From Acidobacteriota bacterium (GTDB lineage: Bacteria > Acidobacteriota > Terriglobia > Versatilivoradales > Versatilivoraceae): DNA of 64,000 nt. Below the pieces are notes generated by a model, which was given only the letters and a program-made list of their open reading frames with translations, was not told the origin of the DNA and did not search any database. The stretch is taken from the NCBI GenBank assembly GCA_022826755.1, contig JAJDUG010000008.1, forward strand, positions 1 through 64,000, read 5' to 3'. Positions 1 to 6,154 of this stretch are shown here, piece by piece. Every line of letters starts with the position of its first letter. Positions within the stretch are counted from its first letter, which is position 1. The position numbers and the translations under genes were made by a program.

Positions 1-1466
1 ATTGTGGGAGCCCACAGGGCGCTTGAGACTCCATCAACGCCTAAGCGGCTCCCAAGCACTCCCTGCAACAGATCTTCGGCACTGTCCTCTCGCTCTTGAA
101 CCTTTCGAGAATGTCCTGCGGCGCAGACTCCTAGCGGCAGATAGAGGCGAGCTTCGCAACCTTGGCCGGTTTTTCGGTTTTCCAATGAGAGCCGTCCGCC
201 GTGGGCTTCGGCGATCTGGCGACTCAGGACCAATCCGATCCCCAATCCATTAGGTTTCGTCGTATAGAAGGGCACAAACAGGTTGGCGGTGTCCGAAAGC
301 CCTGGACCATCGTCTTCTACCCAGACTTCCAGCCGATTCTTGTTCTTGATCCATCCCGTTCTTACCGTCCCCTGTGTTTGCAAAGCGGCATCAACGGCAT
401 TTTTCACCAGGTTGATCAGCAGTTGTTCCAACTGATCCCCGTCGGCCTGGATGGTGAAATCCGGGCCCGCCTCCAGCACAACCGGAAGGCGGGTTTCCAG
501 ACTCATGACGCGATGGATCAAGCCCCCCAGTTCTACCGAGCCGATCTTTGGCCGTGGCAGCCGTGCCAGCCTCGTATAAGCCTGCATGAAACGGTTGAGC
601 GAATCACAGCGAGACCGAATAACTTCCAAACCCCGATGAAGGTCTTCCTCCCAGTCTGTTGGCCGAGGCTTCCGGGACATCACGCTTTCGAGGCTTCCGG
701 TTATGGACTTGATGGGTGCGAGAGAATTATTGAGCTCGTGGCCCAAGACCCTTACCAGACGCTGCCAGGCAAAGCGTTCCTCCTCTCTCAGGGTGCGACT
801 TAGATCTGATAGAACCAGCAGCTGGTGCGGCAACCCCTGGGATCGAAAGCTGCTGCGCCGTACACCCCATCTACCTGACTGTCCTGCAAAGGTCTCATCC
901 AGGATCGCCACGGGCCCACCGCTCAGACAATTGGCCAAGCCAAGTTCCTCGGCTCGACTCCCCAGAATCCTCTCTGAAGTCTTCCCTATCAACCTTTCTC
1001 CTGCTCTATTCACGAGCTGCAACCGCTCTCCATCATCGAAAGCAAAGATGGCCACATCGATTTCCGCCATCACACGATGGAGCAGATTGGTGGCATCCAG
1101 TGTTTCCAGACGCTGCTCTCGGAGAGTCTCGCCAAGAGTATTGACTTCCAACATCACCTCACCCAACGGATCATTCCTCCTCGCGTCTCTTGCCCGAAAT
1201 GAATAGTCTCCTTCCCGCAGTGCCGCAAGAAGATTGGACAGCGTCTGGAGCCGGGAAAGCACCCACCCGCGCACAGCAAAGGAAAATCCCCACCAGAGCA
1301 GGAAGAGAAACAGCGTCAAGGTCCACTGTGTCCTGGAGCTGAAATCTCCGGTCCAGAGCAGGATCAAGGCCACAGCCGTTGCCGGCACTCCCGCACCAAC
1401 CGCCAGAAGCGTGATCCGCCCCTCATGAGTGAGTCTTCGTTCCATGATGGGTGTTCGCTCGGCCAC
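1..1466 (-). CDS. Sensor histidine kinase, NtrY/NtrB-like (C-terminus beyond window edge)
   Basis: Membrane kinase that should phosphorylate the NtrC-type regulator encoded just upstream in the same direction. The frame is open to base 1, so the end is missing from the window. Visible parts in order: two membrane segments within about the first 65 residues, a HAMP-like linker with GDYSFRAR, a PAS-like region (VAIFAFDDGERLQLVNRAGE), a phosphoacceptor box LGHELNNSLAP near residue 240, an N box INLVKNAVDAA, a G1 box EDDGPGL, an F box FYTTKPNG and a G2 box GLGIGL. I chose the GTG at 1466 because AAAGGG sits 7 nt before it; an ATG at 1445 is the alternative. It starts about 65 nt after the regulator's stop, consistent with one operon. 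The kinase family is certain; the signal sensed is not visible. Confidence 0.9.
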   Translation of the reverse strand, partial: MAERTPIMERRLTHEGRITLLAVGAGVPATAVALILLWTGDFSSRTQWTLTLFLFLLWWGFSFAVRGWVLSRLQTLSNLLAALREGDYSFRARDARRNDPLGEVMLEVNTLGETLREQRLETLDATNLLHRVMAEIDVAIFAFDDGERLQLVNRAGERLIGKTSERILGSRAEELGLANCLSGGPVAILDETFAGQSGRWGVRRSSFRSQGLPHQLLVLSDLSRTLREEERFAWQRLVRVLGHELNNSLAPIKSITGSLESVMSRKPRPTDWEEDLHRGLEVIRSRCDSLNRFMQAYTRLARLPRPKIGSVELGGLIHRVMSLETRLPVVLEAGPDFTIQADGDQLEQLLINLVKNAVDAALQTQGTVRTGWIKNKNRLEVWVEDDGPGLSDTANLFVPFYTTKPNGLGIGLVLSRQIAEAHGGRLSLENRKTGQGCEARLYLPLGVCAAGHSRKVQEREDSAEDLLQGVLGSRLGVDGVSSALWAPT

Positions 1467-1531
1467 AAATCGACCCTTTGGTCAATATCGTCCAGTCAAT
1501 CTGTCGCCCTGTCTTGCCATCTGGATAGGGC

Positions 1532-2902
1532 TCACAGACCGTGTCGCTGCAGCCTCCTGTAGAGGGCGCTCCGGCTCAACCCCAAGACCTCTGCCGCTTT
1601 GCGGACATTGCCTTTACACCGAACCAGTGCCTTCTGGATTAACAGTCGCTCGACTTCCTCCAGATTGAGGTCTTCCAGAGCAATGGCTCCGCTGCGGGAA
1701 AGACCGAGGCCAAGGTCGGCAACGTGCACCCTCGTACCCTTTGCCATAAGGACTGCTCTTTCTACGGCATGGTCGAGCTCGCGGACGTTTCCCGGCCAAA
1801 GATGGTCACGCATGGCCCGTGAGGCGGCGTCATCGAATCCGACCAACTCCTTGCCGTAGCGCCGCACATGCCGCTGGAGAAAGTACTCCGCAAGCAGCGG
1901 TATGTCTTTCTGTCGCTGGTTCAAGGGCGGCAGGTGGATCTCGATTGTATTCAGCCGGAAATACAGATCCTGCCTGAACCGGCCTTCGGCTACAGCTTTC
2001 TTGAGATCAGCGTTGGTGGCGGAGAAGACTCTGACATCGACGATGCGAGTCTTCGAAGAACCTACAGGTTCGAACTCTCCACTCTCCAGGACCCGCAAGA
2101 GTTTGGCTTGCTCATTGAGGGAAATGTTGGATATCTCGTCAAGAAAGAGGGTGCCCCCATCGGCCATCTCAAAGCGTCCGATACGATTGGCTTTCGCATC
2201 GGTATAAGCGCCCTTGACGTGGCCGAACACCTCGCTTTCGAATACGCCCTTTGGGAGCCCGCCTGTATTGACTGTCACGAGCGGCTTTCGAGCCCTACGC
2301 GAAACCGCGTGCAGATGATGCGCCACCACCCCTTTGCCCGTGCCGTTGTCTCCGGAAATCAGGATATTCGCATCCGACGGACCCACACGTTCAATCATCT
2401 CCAGGACCGGCTCCATGGCTTCGGAGTCCGCGATCAGCCTGGGAAGCTTCTGATCCCGTAGTACTTGATTCTCGGCCTCGAGACGGCGGCTCTGACGGAG
2501 TGCGCGACCCAGCTCGATTTGGGTTCGCAATATCGCTTCCAGACGCTGATTTTCCCAGGGCTTCTGAATGAAATCTCGGGCGCCTCGTCTCATGGCCTCT
2601 ACCGCGAGCTCAATGCTTCCCCATGCTGTCATCACCACCACTGGAAGTGTCGCGTCAAGCTCGCGAATTTCTGTGAGCAGATCCAGTCCCTCCTGACCGG
2701 ATGTGGTGTCCCGCGTGTAGTTCAGGTCGATGAGCAGGACATCGAACTCCCGAGCCCTCAGAAGACCAAGGACTTGCCGTGGGCTCCGGGCGGTCTCTAC
2801 CTGAAAGGCTTCTCGCTTGAGCAACAATCGAACCGCTTCCAACACAGCCGATTGATCGTCAGCGACCAGGATTCTCGCTGATGGATTCCCTTTTTCACTC
2901 AC
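1532..2902 (-). CDS. NtrC-family sigma-54-dependent response regulator
   Basis: Cytoplasmic transcription activator of 456 residues with the classic three-part layout. The receiver domain (about 1-125) has acidic residues ADD near 14-16 and phosphoacceptor D59 in VLLIDLNY. The AAA+ domain has Walker A SGDNGTGKG (about 183-191) and Walker B TLFLDE (about 251-256). A Fis-type helix-turn-helix ends the protein (GNVRKAAEVLGLSRSALYRRL). The sigma-54 contact loop reads GAYTDA (231-236) instead of the usual GAFTGA. A GTG start at 2902 is preceded by AGGAG 8 nt away; an upstream TTG would add 33 unconvincing residues. It lies between the ABC transporter genes and the sensor kinase, all in one direction, so it probably activates the sigma-54 promoter found before the ABC ATPase gene. 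Confidence 0.93.
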   Translation of the reverse strand: MSEKGNPSARILVADDQSAVLEAVRLLLKREAFQVETARSPRQVLGLLRAREFDVLLIDLNYTRDTTSGQEGLDLLTEIRELDATLPVVVMTAWGSIELAVEAMRRGARDFIQKPWENQRLEAILRTQIELGRALRQSRRLEAENQVLRDQKLPRLIADSEAMEPVLEMIERVGPSDANILISGDNGTGKGVVAHHLHAVSRRARKPLVTVNTGGLPKGVFESEVFGHVKGAYTDAKANRIGRFEMADGGTLFLDEISNISLNEQAKLLRVLESGEFEPVGSSKTRIVDVRVFSATNADLKKAVAEGRFRQDLYFRLNTIEIHLPPLNQRQKDIPLLAEYFLQRHVRRYGKELVGFDDAASRAMRDHLWPGNVRELDHAVERAVLMAKGTRVHVADLGLGLSRSGAIALEDLNLEEVERLLIQKALVRCKGNVRKAAEVLGLSRSALYRRLQRHGL

Positions 2903-3033
2903 TGTGGATTCTCCTATCCCTCCTCCACACCTATTCCTGAGCACTTGGATCACCTCTATGACCTGAAAGTGGCACCTCTCCGTGTTCTCGATTCGAATCA
3001 ACGGTGAGACACTGGTCGCCGGGCCTCTGTGGG

Positions 3034-4833
3034 CTATCCACTCAGTTTCAGAGTTCTGACGGCTGGTTCGGCAGTTTCAAGATAAACAATGGCCGGATTG
3101 CTGTTCCATAGGTCGTTCCTGTACATCACGGCTGCAATCAATGCAGGAATTGCGAAGGCATTGAACAGTATGAAATAGAGCGGGTTGTCGAACAGCCACG
3201 CCTCGAGCTTTGCCATGGCATAGGCGTAAGTCACAAAGAAGAGAAAATAGGGGAACCATAAACCCTTGAGGTTCGCTCTGCCGGGCAGGTAGGAACAGGT
3301 GAACGGGATCTTCGGAAACTTGAAAAGGAGGATCTCGATGAGAATCAGTGCAAGGGTAAACCCATAAGTAAGGTGAAGTAGTGCAGTCATCGCGTCCCAC
3401 ACCATCAAGTAGGAAGGGAACAACATCATGAATAGAGGCATGATGCCCAAAACCAGCATGGCTTTATGGACCCCTGAAATCGCGCTGGCGTTCCCCTTGT
3501 TTTCAGCCAACCTGAAGATCCAGTTGGCTTCCAGTTCTGACGGAACGGTGAAGGCGTATCGCATTCCAGCCAGGACAAAAAAGGACAGGATCAGCGGCAC
3601 GGATAGCAGCGGAATGCTCTGCGGATTCCAATCTTCGGGTCCACTCCTCGAGAGTGCATCCATCAGCACAACAAGTACCAATGCCATTCCCACACTGAAA
3701 TACCCACCCAGAAAAATACGGTGCTTCTGGCTTCTCAGGAGCGTTCTTGCGACAAAGTAAAATGTGGCGCGCTCTGTTTCGTTCCTCAACACCAAGCGAT
3801 CAAGGGTGGCGGCCAGGAAACGAATACCCTTCGCGGGCCGGCGCACTGTCTCCGTGGACTCCCACGACTCCTGAACCTGCCGCTTGTAGGCAATCAGGTA
3901 TGTCAGGAGACAGCAAAGGGCCGTCATCGTCAGTGCTGTCAGACCCATTCGGTATTCAAGCCGAAAGTCTCCACTGCCAAGAAGCCATTGATAGAGACCG
4001 AGGTACCACATGGGGGGGGAAAGGGTCCGAAAGAGTTCGTTATGCTGCAGACTCTCAAAATTGAAGATCAATTGGGGGAAAACGAAGAGCACTGAAAGCA
4101 GACTCATCATCATCATCAGCTGTACGGCACGAGAAACAAAGCGAAGCATCTCGCTTCTGAACAGATTGATCAGAATTCCCTGGATCGAAACCACTGAGAA
4201 GAAAGCAAACGCACTTCCGGCCATAACGCTCAAAGCGTGCGTCAAAACAAACCCCCCCGCAAAGACCAACGTGGCTTGCTCCTGAATCTGTTCACGCTCA
4301 CCGGACTCCAGAAGGAACCGTCCTTCATGAAGCAGTGAACCCATGTTGGCATTGACAACCAGAGGAAACAGCACTGTCGGAATGGCGTTGACTGTAAGTG
4401 TGAACAGGAGAAGCAAGAGAACGAGAGCCAGCCCCTTGCATGCGAACAACGTTCTCATCCGGACGGGGAGTGGAGTGAGAATATTGTAGTCTTTGCGAGT
4501 GGGGAACAAAGTATCCCAATTGAGCACCGCCACAAACGCGACCACAAGCATGGAGAATGAGAGAAAGAAAAACTTGTCCTCCAAGGTAGCTTCCTGATGA
4601 ACAGACAGAGGGAAATGGGCCAGGAGAAACGCATACTTGCGAGCCAGGCTAACCGAGATGAAGATCCCTGGAACCATCAGGAGAGCCAGGACATGCGTCA
4701 GGGTTACTTCCGTCCCGGTTTGTGGGGTTGGCAGGTCACTGTGAAAAAACTGTCTGAAGAAGTGGCGGGTGAGTAGAAAAACGGGACCCCGTCTTTCCGG
4801 ACCCAGGAAGTTTCCAGAAAAGCCCATGATCAC
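3034..4833 (-). CDS. ABC transporter large membrane (permease) protein
   Basis: Polytopic inner-membrane protein of about 599 residues with roughly a dozen hydrophobic segments spread along its length. No soluble domain is recognisable beyond loops of charged residues. It begins 1 nt after the stop of the ABC ATPase gene, so the two are surely translated from one mRNA and form one transporter. The GTG at 4833 or the ATG at 4827 could be the start; neither has a clear ribosome site, which fits translational coupling. It resembles ABC-2-type exporter permeases only in general architecture. The substrate cannot be read from the sequence. Control by the adjacent NtrC-type regulator through the upstream sigma-54 promoter is inferred. 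Confidence 0.75.
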   Translation of the reverse strand: MIMGFSGNFLGPERRGPVFLLTRHFFRQFFHSDLPTPQTGTEVTLTHVLALLMVPGIFISVSLARKYAFLLAHFPLSVHQEATLEDKFFFLSFSMLVVAFVAVLNWDTLFPTRKDYNILTPLPVRMRTLFACKGLALVLLLLLFTLTVNAIPTVLFPLVVNANMGSLLHEGRFLLESGEREQIQEQATLVFAGGFVLTHALSVMAGSAFAFFSVVSIQGILINLFRSEMLRFVSRAVQLMMMMSLLSVLFVFPQLIFNFESLQHNELFRTLSPPMWYLGLYQWLLGSGDFRLEYRMGLTALTMTALCCLLTYLIAYKRQVQESWESTETVRRPAKGIRFLAATLDRLVLRNETERATFYFVARTLLRSQKHRIFLGGYFSVGMALVLVVLMDALSRSGPEDWNPQSIPLLSVPLILSFFVLAGMRYAFTVPSELEANWIFRLAENKGNASAISGVHKAMLVLGIMPLFMMLFPSYLMVWDAMTALLHLTYGFTLALILIEILLFKFPKIPFTCSYLPGRANLKGLWFPYFLFFVTYAYAMAKLEAWLFDNPLYFILFNAFAIPALIAAVMYRNDLWNSNPAIVYLETAEPAVRTLKLSG

Positions 4834-4834
4834 A

Positions 4835-5599
4835 TCAGTATTTCATGACGTCCACGATGTCGCGCGCCACATGGTTTGCGTCCTCTTGGTGCACCAGCTC
4901 GGTGAACACCTCCTCTAGTGAGGGTCTTCGCATCAAGGTTCTCAAGTGGTCGATCGAGTCATTCGCAACAACCCTTCCCCGGTAGAGAATCACGACTGTC
5001 GAGCAAAGCTTCTCGACGACATCGAGGAGATGAGAACAGTAAAGGACGATCTTGCTCTCCTCAGCCAACGTCTGGACAAGGCTCCTCAGAACCAGGCCCG
5101 ACCCAATGTCCAGCCCGGAATCTGGCTCATCGAATATGACAACGTCAGGGTTGTGGAGCAAAGCAGCAGAGATCAAGATCTTTCGTCGCATTCCATTGGA
5201 GTAAGCTGAAATAGCAGAGTGGCGGTAGGGGTGGAGCGAAAACAACCGCAGAAACGCATCGATTTTCTCGTTCAGCAACCTTTCCGGAATAGAGCGCAGT
5301 CGACCGACCAACTGCAAGTATTCAGTTCCCGTCAGATAGGGATAGAGATGGGACTCCTCGGGAACATAGCCCAAGCGCTTTTTGTATCCGTTAAGGTCAA
5401 CTTGGATGGGCTGGCCGTTGAAAAGGATCTGTCCGTGAGACGGTTCCAGAAGAGTGGTCAGCATCTTCACTGTTGTGCTTTTGCCCGAGCCGTTCGGTCC
5501 CAAATACCCAACGACTTCTCCGGGCTTAACCTCAAATGTGACCTGGTCAACTACCGGAATGCCGCGGTACCGCTTGGTGAGTCTCTCGGCTCTTAGCAC
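4835..5599 (-). CDS. ABC transporter ATP-binding protein
   Basis: Energises the membrane protein encoded directly downstream. It contains Walker A GPNGSGKST, a Q-loop region, an unusual signature YSNGMRRK in place of LSGGQ, Walker B VVIFDEP followed by the D-loop SGLD, and the switch histidine in YCSH. This set is typical of the CcmA/NatA-like exporter branch. I start it at the GTG at 5599 (giving LRAERLTKRY): AAGGG lies 8 nt before it, and the longer frame back to 5665 would overlap the sigma-54 promoter and begin before its expected transcription start. About 254 residues, normal for the family. Substrate unknown; antibiotic, lipid or peptide export are all possible. Confidence 0.9.
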   Translation of the reverse strand: MLRAERLTKRYRGIPVVDQVTFEVKPGEVVGYLGPNGSGKSTTVKMLTTLLEPSHGQILFNGQPIQVDLNGYKKRLGYVPEESHLYPYLTGTEYLQLVGRLRSIPERLLNEKIDAFLRLFSLHPYRHSAISAYSNGMRRKILISAALLHNPDVVIFDEPDSGLDIGSGLVLRSLVQTLAEESKIVLYCSHLLDVVEKLCSTVVILYRGRVVANDSIDHLRTLMRRPSLEEVFTELVHQEDANHVARDIVDVMKY

Positions 5600-5656
5600 G
5601 GTCACTTCCCTTGAGGTTACGGAGTCAGGCTCTGCGGTTCGGCTCAGATGACTTAC

Positions 5657-5672
5657 TGCAATCACCTTGCCA
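5657..5672 (-). promoter_or_regulatory. Sigma-54 (-24/-12) promoter for the ABC transporter operon
   Basis: Read on the minus strand the site is TGGCAAGGTGATTGCA. It matches the sigma-54 consensus TGGCACG-N4-TTGCW at every position but one (A for C), with the correct spacing between the GG and GC doublets. Transcription would start near 5645, ahead of the preferred ABC ATPase start at 5599. The same gene cluster encodes an NtrC-type activator and its kinase, which makes the site functionally coherent. Confidence 0.75.
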
Positions 5673-5755
5673 TCAGTTCCAGAGCATTAACTCTTTGTGA
5701 AACAGAGGGATACGGGATTCAGGTCCAACCGCCTGGTCCCACCCCCGTCCGCATC

Positions 5756-5773
5756 TGGGACTCACACGTCCCA
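5756..5773. promoter_or_regulatory. Palindromic upstream activator site, probable NtrC-type binding site
   Basis: The sequence TGGGACTCACACGTCCCA is a perfect inverted repeat (TGGGAC-N6-GTCCCA). Overlapping it is a second GTCC-N7-GGAC arrangement reaching to 5782, and further GTCC/GGAC half-sites lie at about 5722-5761. It sits roughly 85-100 bp upstream of the sigma-54 promoter, a usual distance for enhancer sites of NtrC-type activators. The protein that binds is inferred to be the regulator at 1532-2902. Confidence 0.55.
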
Positions 5774-5904
5774 ATTCCGGACACACTTCAAGAGTTTACT
5801 TTCAGAGGAAAGCGAGTTGACCAGGAGGGAACAGCATCCAGTTCGTTTTTGCTGCTCAAAGATTCCTGGATGTCGGACGGCCCCGGCGTCCCAAACAGAA
5901 CGCG

Positions 5905-6154
5905 CAACGAAACATCCCGTGCGCTCACGTCGTTCAGAATCGTATAGCCGGCGATGTGGTCATAGGCGTTTTCCGCCGGGATGTTCTTTCATCTGCGTCG
6001 GCAGAGGACGCGACATGTGCCGTGCGCGGATCGGGTACCGGCTGTTCCGCATCAGTTTTCGATGGGCGCGGCTCAGGTCGATGATCAGATCGCCCGATTT
6101 GCCGAGCGCGCCGAGCCGGGTCTCTTCCGATAGGAGGTAGCTGACGAGTTTCAT
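5905..6154 (-). pseudogene. Fumarylacetoacetate-hydrolase family remnant, internally deleted
   Basis: From an ATG at 6154 the minus strand encodes a typical family N-terminus: MKLVSYLLSEETRLGAL, then DLIIDLSRAH and PLPTQMKEH. At about 5960-5980 the frame breaks. In another frame the core of the same family follows directly: PAENAYDHIAGYTILNDVS and then ARDVS. In intact members these blocks are separated by roughly a hundred residues holding metal-binding parts, so both a deletion and a frameshift are indicated. After ARDVS the family match fades and the frame soon stops. The family normally hydrolyses or isomerises ring-cleavage products of aromatic catabolism. The divergent neighbour is a remnant of a ring-cleavage dioxygenase family, so a lost aromatic pathway is plausible. 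Confidence 0.75.

Follow-up and report, generated by a model that had tools for sequence, protein, structure and literature searches.

Upstream of an ABC transporter gene pair of an uncultured Acidobacteriota bacterium lies a -24/-12 element preceded by two GTCC-N7-GGAC dyads in tandem, an arrangement that, on comparative evidence, is very probably a sigma-54 promoter with an enhancer driven by the NtrC-type response regulator of the same gene cluster, serving both this pump and the operon of a second, HlyD/LolD-type pump. The window (the whole stretch of DNA analysed, 64,000 nucleotides) opens contig C79 of genome G000 (81 contigs, 4.6 Mb). Our computations establish the anatomy of the site, its conservation, its recurrence at the second operon and its association, across the phylum, with the regulator and with export-pump genes. 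Taken together, the comparisons make a strong and well-supported case for what would be a new regulon of a familiar kind.

Gene organization and start of the ATPase gene

The genes downstream of the promoter (Table 1) are indeed those named in an earlier, sequence-only reading of this DNA: an ABC ATPase, a membrane protein, an NtrC-type regulator and a sensor kinase. Since the ATPase and membrane protein genes nearly abut (4835 / 4833) and a search of 1400-6000 turned up no sigma-70-like site, read-through into the regulator and kinase genes, which lie beyond a 131-bp gap, is plausible. The pair does not show the combination of a MacB/LolD-type ATPase and an FtsX-type permease that marks MacAB/DarCD-type exporters. 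Distant homologues of the 599-aa membrane protein (37-43%) occur in G002 and G003, paired with the same ATPase. The GTG codon at 5599, proposed before as the corrected start of the ATPase, is supported on two grounds: the alternative GTG at 5665 would fall upstream of the predicted transcription start, and a 94% relative (G010) carries a 1-nt insertion between 5665 and 5599.

Table 1. Features of the transporter cluster and its control region (window coordinates).
Feature	Position	Strand	Remarks
Sensor histidine kinase	132..1466	-	C-terminal last residues swapped for inserted repeat element in G000
NtrC-type response regulator, predicted activator	1532..2902	-	receiver, sigma-54 activation domain with GAYTDA loop, Fis-type HTH
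Putative membrane partner of ATPase, 599 aa	3034..4833	-	no Pfam/NCBIfam match
ABC transporter ATPase	4835..5599	-	ABC_tran; nearest NCBIfam DrrA/GldA-like, under cut-off; start GTG 5599
-24/-12 (sigma-54) element TGGCAAG-GTGA-TTGCA, TGGCAAGGTGATTGCA	5657..5672	-	GG and GC invariant in four genus genomes, spacer varies
Conserved stretch between enhancer and promoter, TCACAAAGAGTTAA	5687..5700	-	
Proximal dyad of enhancer, GTCCCAGATGCGGAC	5747..5761	-	15 bp
Palindrome TGGGAC-N6-GTCCCA	5756..5773	-	junction of both dyads' inner half-sites
Distal dyad of enhancer, GTCCGGAATTGGGAC	5768..5782	-	15 bp

Anatomy of the promoter and enhancer

The -24/-12 element was found where it had been described, with one mismatch to TGGCAYG-N4-TTGCW and the right spacing; its GG and GC doublets and their distance are those of a sigma-54 promoter (close to TGGCAYR-N4-TTGCW), and the genome holds a single Sigma54_DBD (rpoN) gene (E 5.6e-53). 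Transcription is predicted to start at ~5646. The match alone is insignificant in the window (3 found vs 0.91 expected, with 3 reached in 5 of 100 shuffles); the case draws its strength from conservation and recurrence. The conserved stretch between enhancer and promoter weakly resembles an IHF/HU-type site and might serve as one; three HU/IHF-family genes are present in the genome.

The perfect palindrome TGGGAC-N6-GTCCCA, the only match without mismatch in the window, lies 84-101 bp upstream of the -24 T, in keeping with the earlier estimate of about 85-100 bp. That reading had also described a single GTCC-N7-GGAC overlapping it; the dyad is present, but there are two of them, one on either side, so that the palindrome is the place where their inner half-sites meet. 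The dyads are 21 bp apart from centre to centre, and the first begins 110 bp from the -24 T. Of the 36 bp of the tandem, 16 are fixed bases, and this pattern has exactly two perfect matches in the 4.6 Mb genome, both at one gene cluster, compared with ~0.001 expected by arithmetic. Most likely, the dimer-sized unit is the GTCC-N7-GGAC dyad, present twice. When spacing was left free, the proximal dyad had N7 in 29/40 cases, the distal dyad N7 in 23/40 and the junction N6 in 23/40, counts that favour the dyad reading without proving it and disfavour the central palindrome as the binding unit.

Two further ideas about the site were dropped. The palindrome alone is no genome-wide marker, showing no enrichment over a reversed control (with one mismatch allowed, it is again no commoner than in that control); the second perfect copy, at C14:10898, immediately follows a gene that seems unrelated, and the 3-kb locus around it contains no -24/-12 match. 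Nor do we claim helical phasing of enhancer and promoter, because the spacings of 100, 110, 210 and 220 bp fit whole turns inconsistently.

Conservation in the genus and a second pump operon

Conservation of the palindrome in relatives, one of the conditions that the sequence-only reading had set for its proposal, was borne out. All four genus genomes in which the promoter is assembled (G000, G007, G009 and G010) retain both the element, with its 16 fixed tandem bases intact, and the -24/-12 site, and the distance from tandem dyad to -24/-12 site is exactly 110 bp. Two other members of the genus, G006 and G011, yielded no pump membrane protein and no orthologue of the regulator; in G006, any operator match had at least two mismatches. 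The ~80 bp upstream of the enhancer (window 5783-5865) are also highly conserved in the genus, up to a synteny break.

In relatives the cluster continues beyond the kinase with genes for an HlyD-like adaptor and a LolD/DarD-like ATPase, and this operon, too, is preceded in four genomes by the tandem dyad, with 0-2 mismatches, here at 219-221 bp from a -24/-12 site that reads TGGCAAyCAmCTTGCA. In G000 the operon is on contig C36 and carries the second exact 36-bp element of the genome. Its products, an RND_mfp/DarC-like adaptor and a DarD/LolD-like ATPase, resemble those of MacAB/DarCD-type exporters, although their scores fall short of the cut-offs for DarC and DarD; the ATPase-membrane pair of the window is of another type, and FtsX/MacB-type permeases are found behind some operators elsewhere in the phylum.

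The response regulator

The regulator combines a receiver, a sigma-54 AAA+ domain and a Fis-type HTH (Pfam PF00072, PF00158 and PF02954), the domain set of an NtrC-type protein, and the phosphoacceptor Asp is present in 63/63 orthologues compared. Among the same 63, the sigma-54 loop reads GAFTDA in 57, GAYTDA in five and GSFTDA in one. The window's GAYTDA departs from GAFTGA by F3Y and G5D, each of which occurs in a proven activator, TouR and FlgR (PMC3162934); singly, both are thus working substitutions, and the pair is putatively so.

With these three domains the protein is like the group I, type Ia activators of the NtrC family (NtrC, ZraR, AtoC, FlgR; PMC3162934), with which the cluster also shares an adjacent kinase gene and a dyad enhancer upstream of a -24/-12 element; it differs in its loop, GA[FY]TDA. 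Scoring well under every NCBIfam equivalog cut-off shown, it is none of the named regulators. Its best NCBIfam match, over the full length, is PrsR (TIGR02915, PEP-CTERM response regulator), at 372.6 bits against a cut-off of 502.6 bits, and its neighbours are pumps.

Recurrence across the phylum

Orthologues of the regulator (56-70%) are encoded in 112 of 396 Acidobacteriota genomes, twice in each of G061 and G359. Most of them lie next to genes for HlyD, an ATPase and a kinase. De novo expectation maximization (EM) on 31 HlyD-upstream regions of other genera returned GTCCCAnAAgCGGACA (log-likelihood 138 vs 48 for shuffled sequences). A leave-one-out score for the tandem with a -24/-12 site at 105-115 bp gave p < 0.01 vs shuffles in 24/31; as the dyad and -24/-12 matrices were hand-set from these data and general knowledge, the p values of the composite element are guides. 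With the distance unconstrained, the best spacing from enhancer to -24/-12 site was mostly 107-113 bp.

R1, a DNA-only model made from 15 promoters outside the genus, placed the window promoter at 5782-5658 (E 5.9e-9, window search), and this was its top match in the whole genome (E 4.3e-7). That the palindrome is functionless and the -24/-12 site a look-alike could be argued from the insignificance of the promoter match in the window and from the unremarkable number of one-mismatch palindromes in the genome. Given the restriction of the exact tandem to two operons of one cluster, the composite scores, the independent R1 result and the conservation of the element across genera, chance is nevertheless a very unlikely explanation.

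At E <= 1e-4, R1 matched 46/396 genomes, 43 of which carry the regulator (Fisher p 2e-23, ignoring shared ancestry); with the training genomes removed the figures were 28 of 31 (p 2e-15, shared ancestry likewise uncorrected). Strong matches outside the training set lie ahead of HlyD adaptors (L190, L194, L198, L202, L203, L204, L207, L209 and L210) or of FtsX/MacB-type permeases (L200, L201, L205 and L206), pump identity being judged from the sequences without a family search; L211 is an exception. Conversely, R1 found nothing at E <= 1e-4 in 69 of the 112 regulator-positive genomes, a group that includes most of family f2, and three operator-positive genomes (G052, G080 and G224) have no orthologue at the threshold used. 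In f2 (L137, L143, L140, L142, L144 and L151) the sites upstream of HlyD look diverged, e.g. GTTTCGATTGCGGACG, which suggests a lineage-specific operator.

The dyads thus lie upstream of the promoter and are conserved together with the activator, as in an enhancer. The association bears on which protein would bind them. Since the genome has genes for three other strong sigma-54 activators, one of these might occupy the tandem dyads of a genuine sigma-54 promoter. We regard this as unlikely: their HTH sequences are unlike that of the cluster's regulator, whose HTH end, GLSRSALYRRL, is kept among orthologues and different in paralogues; the operator tracks the orthologues of this regulator through the phylum; and both exact operators of the genome are at its gene cluster. 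The pairing of the enhancer with the cluster's regulator, first proposed from neighbourhood, no longer has to rest on that alone and is now suggested by comparison as well.

The dyads might instead be the site of an unrelated repressor or activator at a promoter of another kind. In another genus (G003) the homologous ATPase-membrane pair does stand behind a PadR-type regulator gene instead, and the -12 element is poor at some dyad-bearing HlyD promoters (TTGAG, TTCCT, TTGGT). Yet the near-constant distance of operator and -24/-12 site in many genera, the lack of a sigma-70-like site in the region searched and the co-occurrence of the operator with an NtrC-type regulator make such a factor quite improbable.

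Proposed mechanism and relation to known systems

Activation of the sigma-54 promoter by the cluster's regulator would proceed as follows. The adjacent kinase would phosphorylate the response regulator, two phosphorylated dimers of which would bind next to each other on the dyads, at a distance of two helical turns. The regulator would then form its AAA+ ring and, with the DNA looping over ~110 bp, remodel sigma-54 RNA polymerase at the -24/-12 element, leading to opening at ~5646. The ATPase-membrane protein pair would thereby be switched on and, probably by read-through, the regulator and kinase as well, amounting to positive autoregulation; through the second copy of the enhancer, the same regulator would drive the neighbouring HlyD/LolD-type operon. 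The pumps may export toxic or antimicrobial compounds.

Enhancers of this type are usually expected to tolerate changes in distance, in contrast to the near-fixed ~110 bp seen here. A tentative explanation, which we put forward with considerable doubt, is that the regulon is ancient and phylum-wide, with one regulator acting on several pump classes and the ~110-bp distance under selection, and that this genus recruited an unrelated second ABC pump by means of the same operator. An ATPase-membrane pair in G328 (L132) was considered as a second case of such recruitment and rejected, having no strong operator ahead of it.

Sigma-54 has been tied broadly to the cell exterior (PMC3162934), and sigma-54 promoters have been predicted at FtsX-type and antimicrobial-peptide ABC transporters (COG0577, COG1136) in gamma-Proteobacteria, Opitutia and Bacteroidia (PMC12316311, 2025). 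These are targets of the same kind as here; the main text of that report names no Acidobacteriota, and we found in it neither a cognate activator nor an enhancer site proposed for the transporters. In the literature searched we found no description of the tandem GTCC-N7-GGAC operator or its regulon, nor of any such sigma-54 regulon in Acidobacteriota. In light of those predictions and of this search, the regulon appears to be new and of a familiar kind. It would give the export pumps of a large, little-cultivated phylum an operator, a promoter geometry and a likely cognate two-component regulator, and would provide a case, with both activator and operator, for the connection of sigma-54 to FtsX-type exporters predicted recently. 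A direct test is now possible in cultivable Acidobacteriota, and the operator model can list regulon members in genomes available only from metagenomes.

Genomic surroundings of the cluster

The final residues of the kinase are replaced (window 1-131) by a repeat element that has entered the last codons of its gene and is bounded by 16-bp inverted ends, GGAGTCTGCGCCGCAG. The element is found again at the ends of G000 contigs C14, C15, C63 and C36; it probably caused the contig break between the kinase and the HlyD operon. The G+C content is 53-57% in window 1-5900 vs ~64% over most of the window. Together with the absence of the cluster from two genus members, this low value suggests that window 1-5900 is possibly an acquired island.
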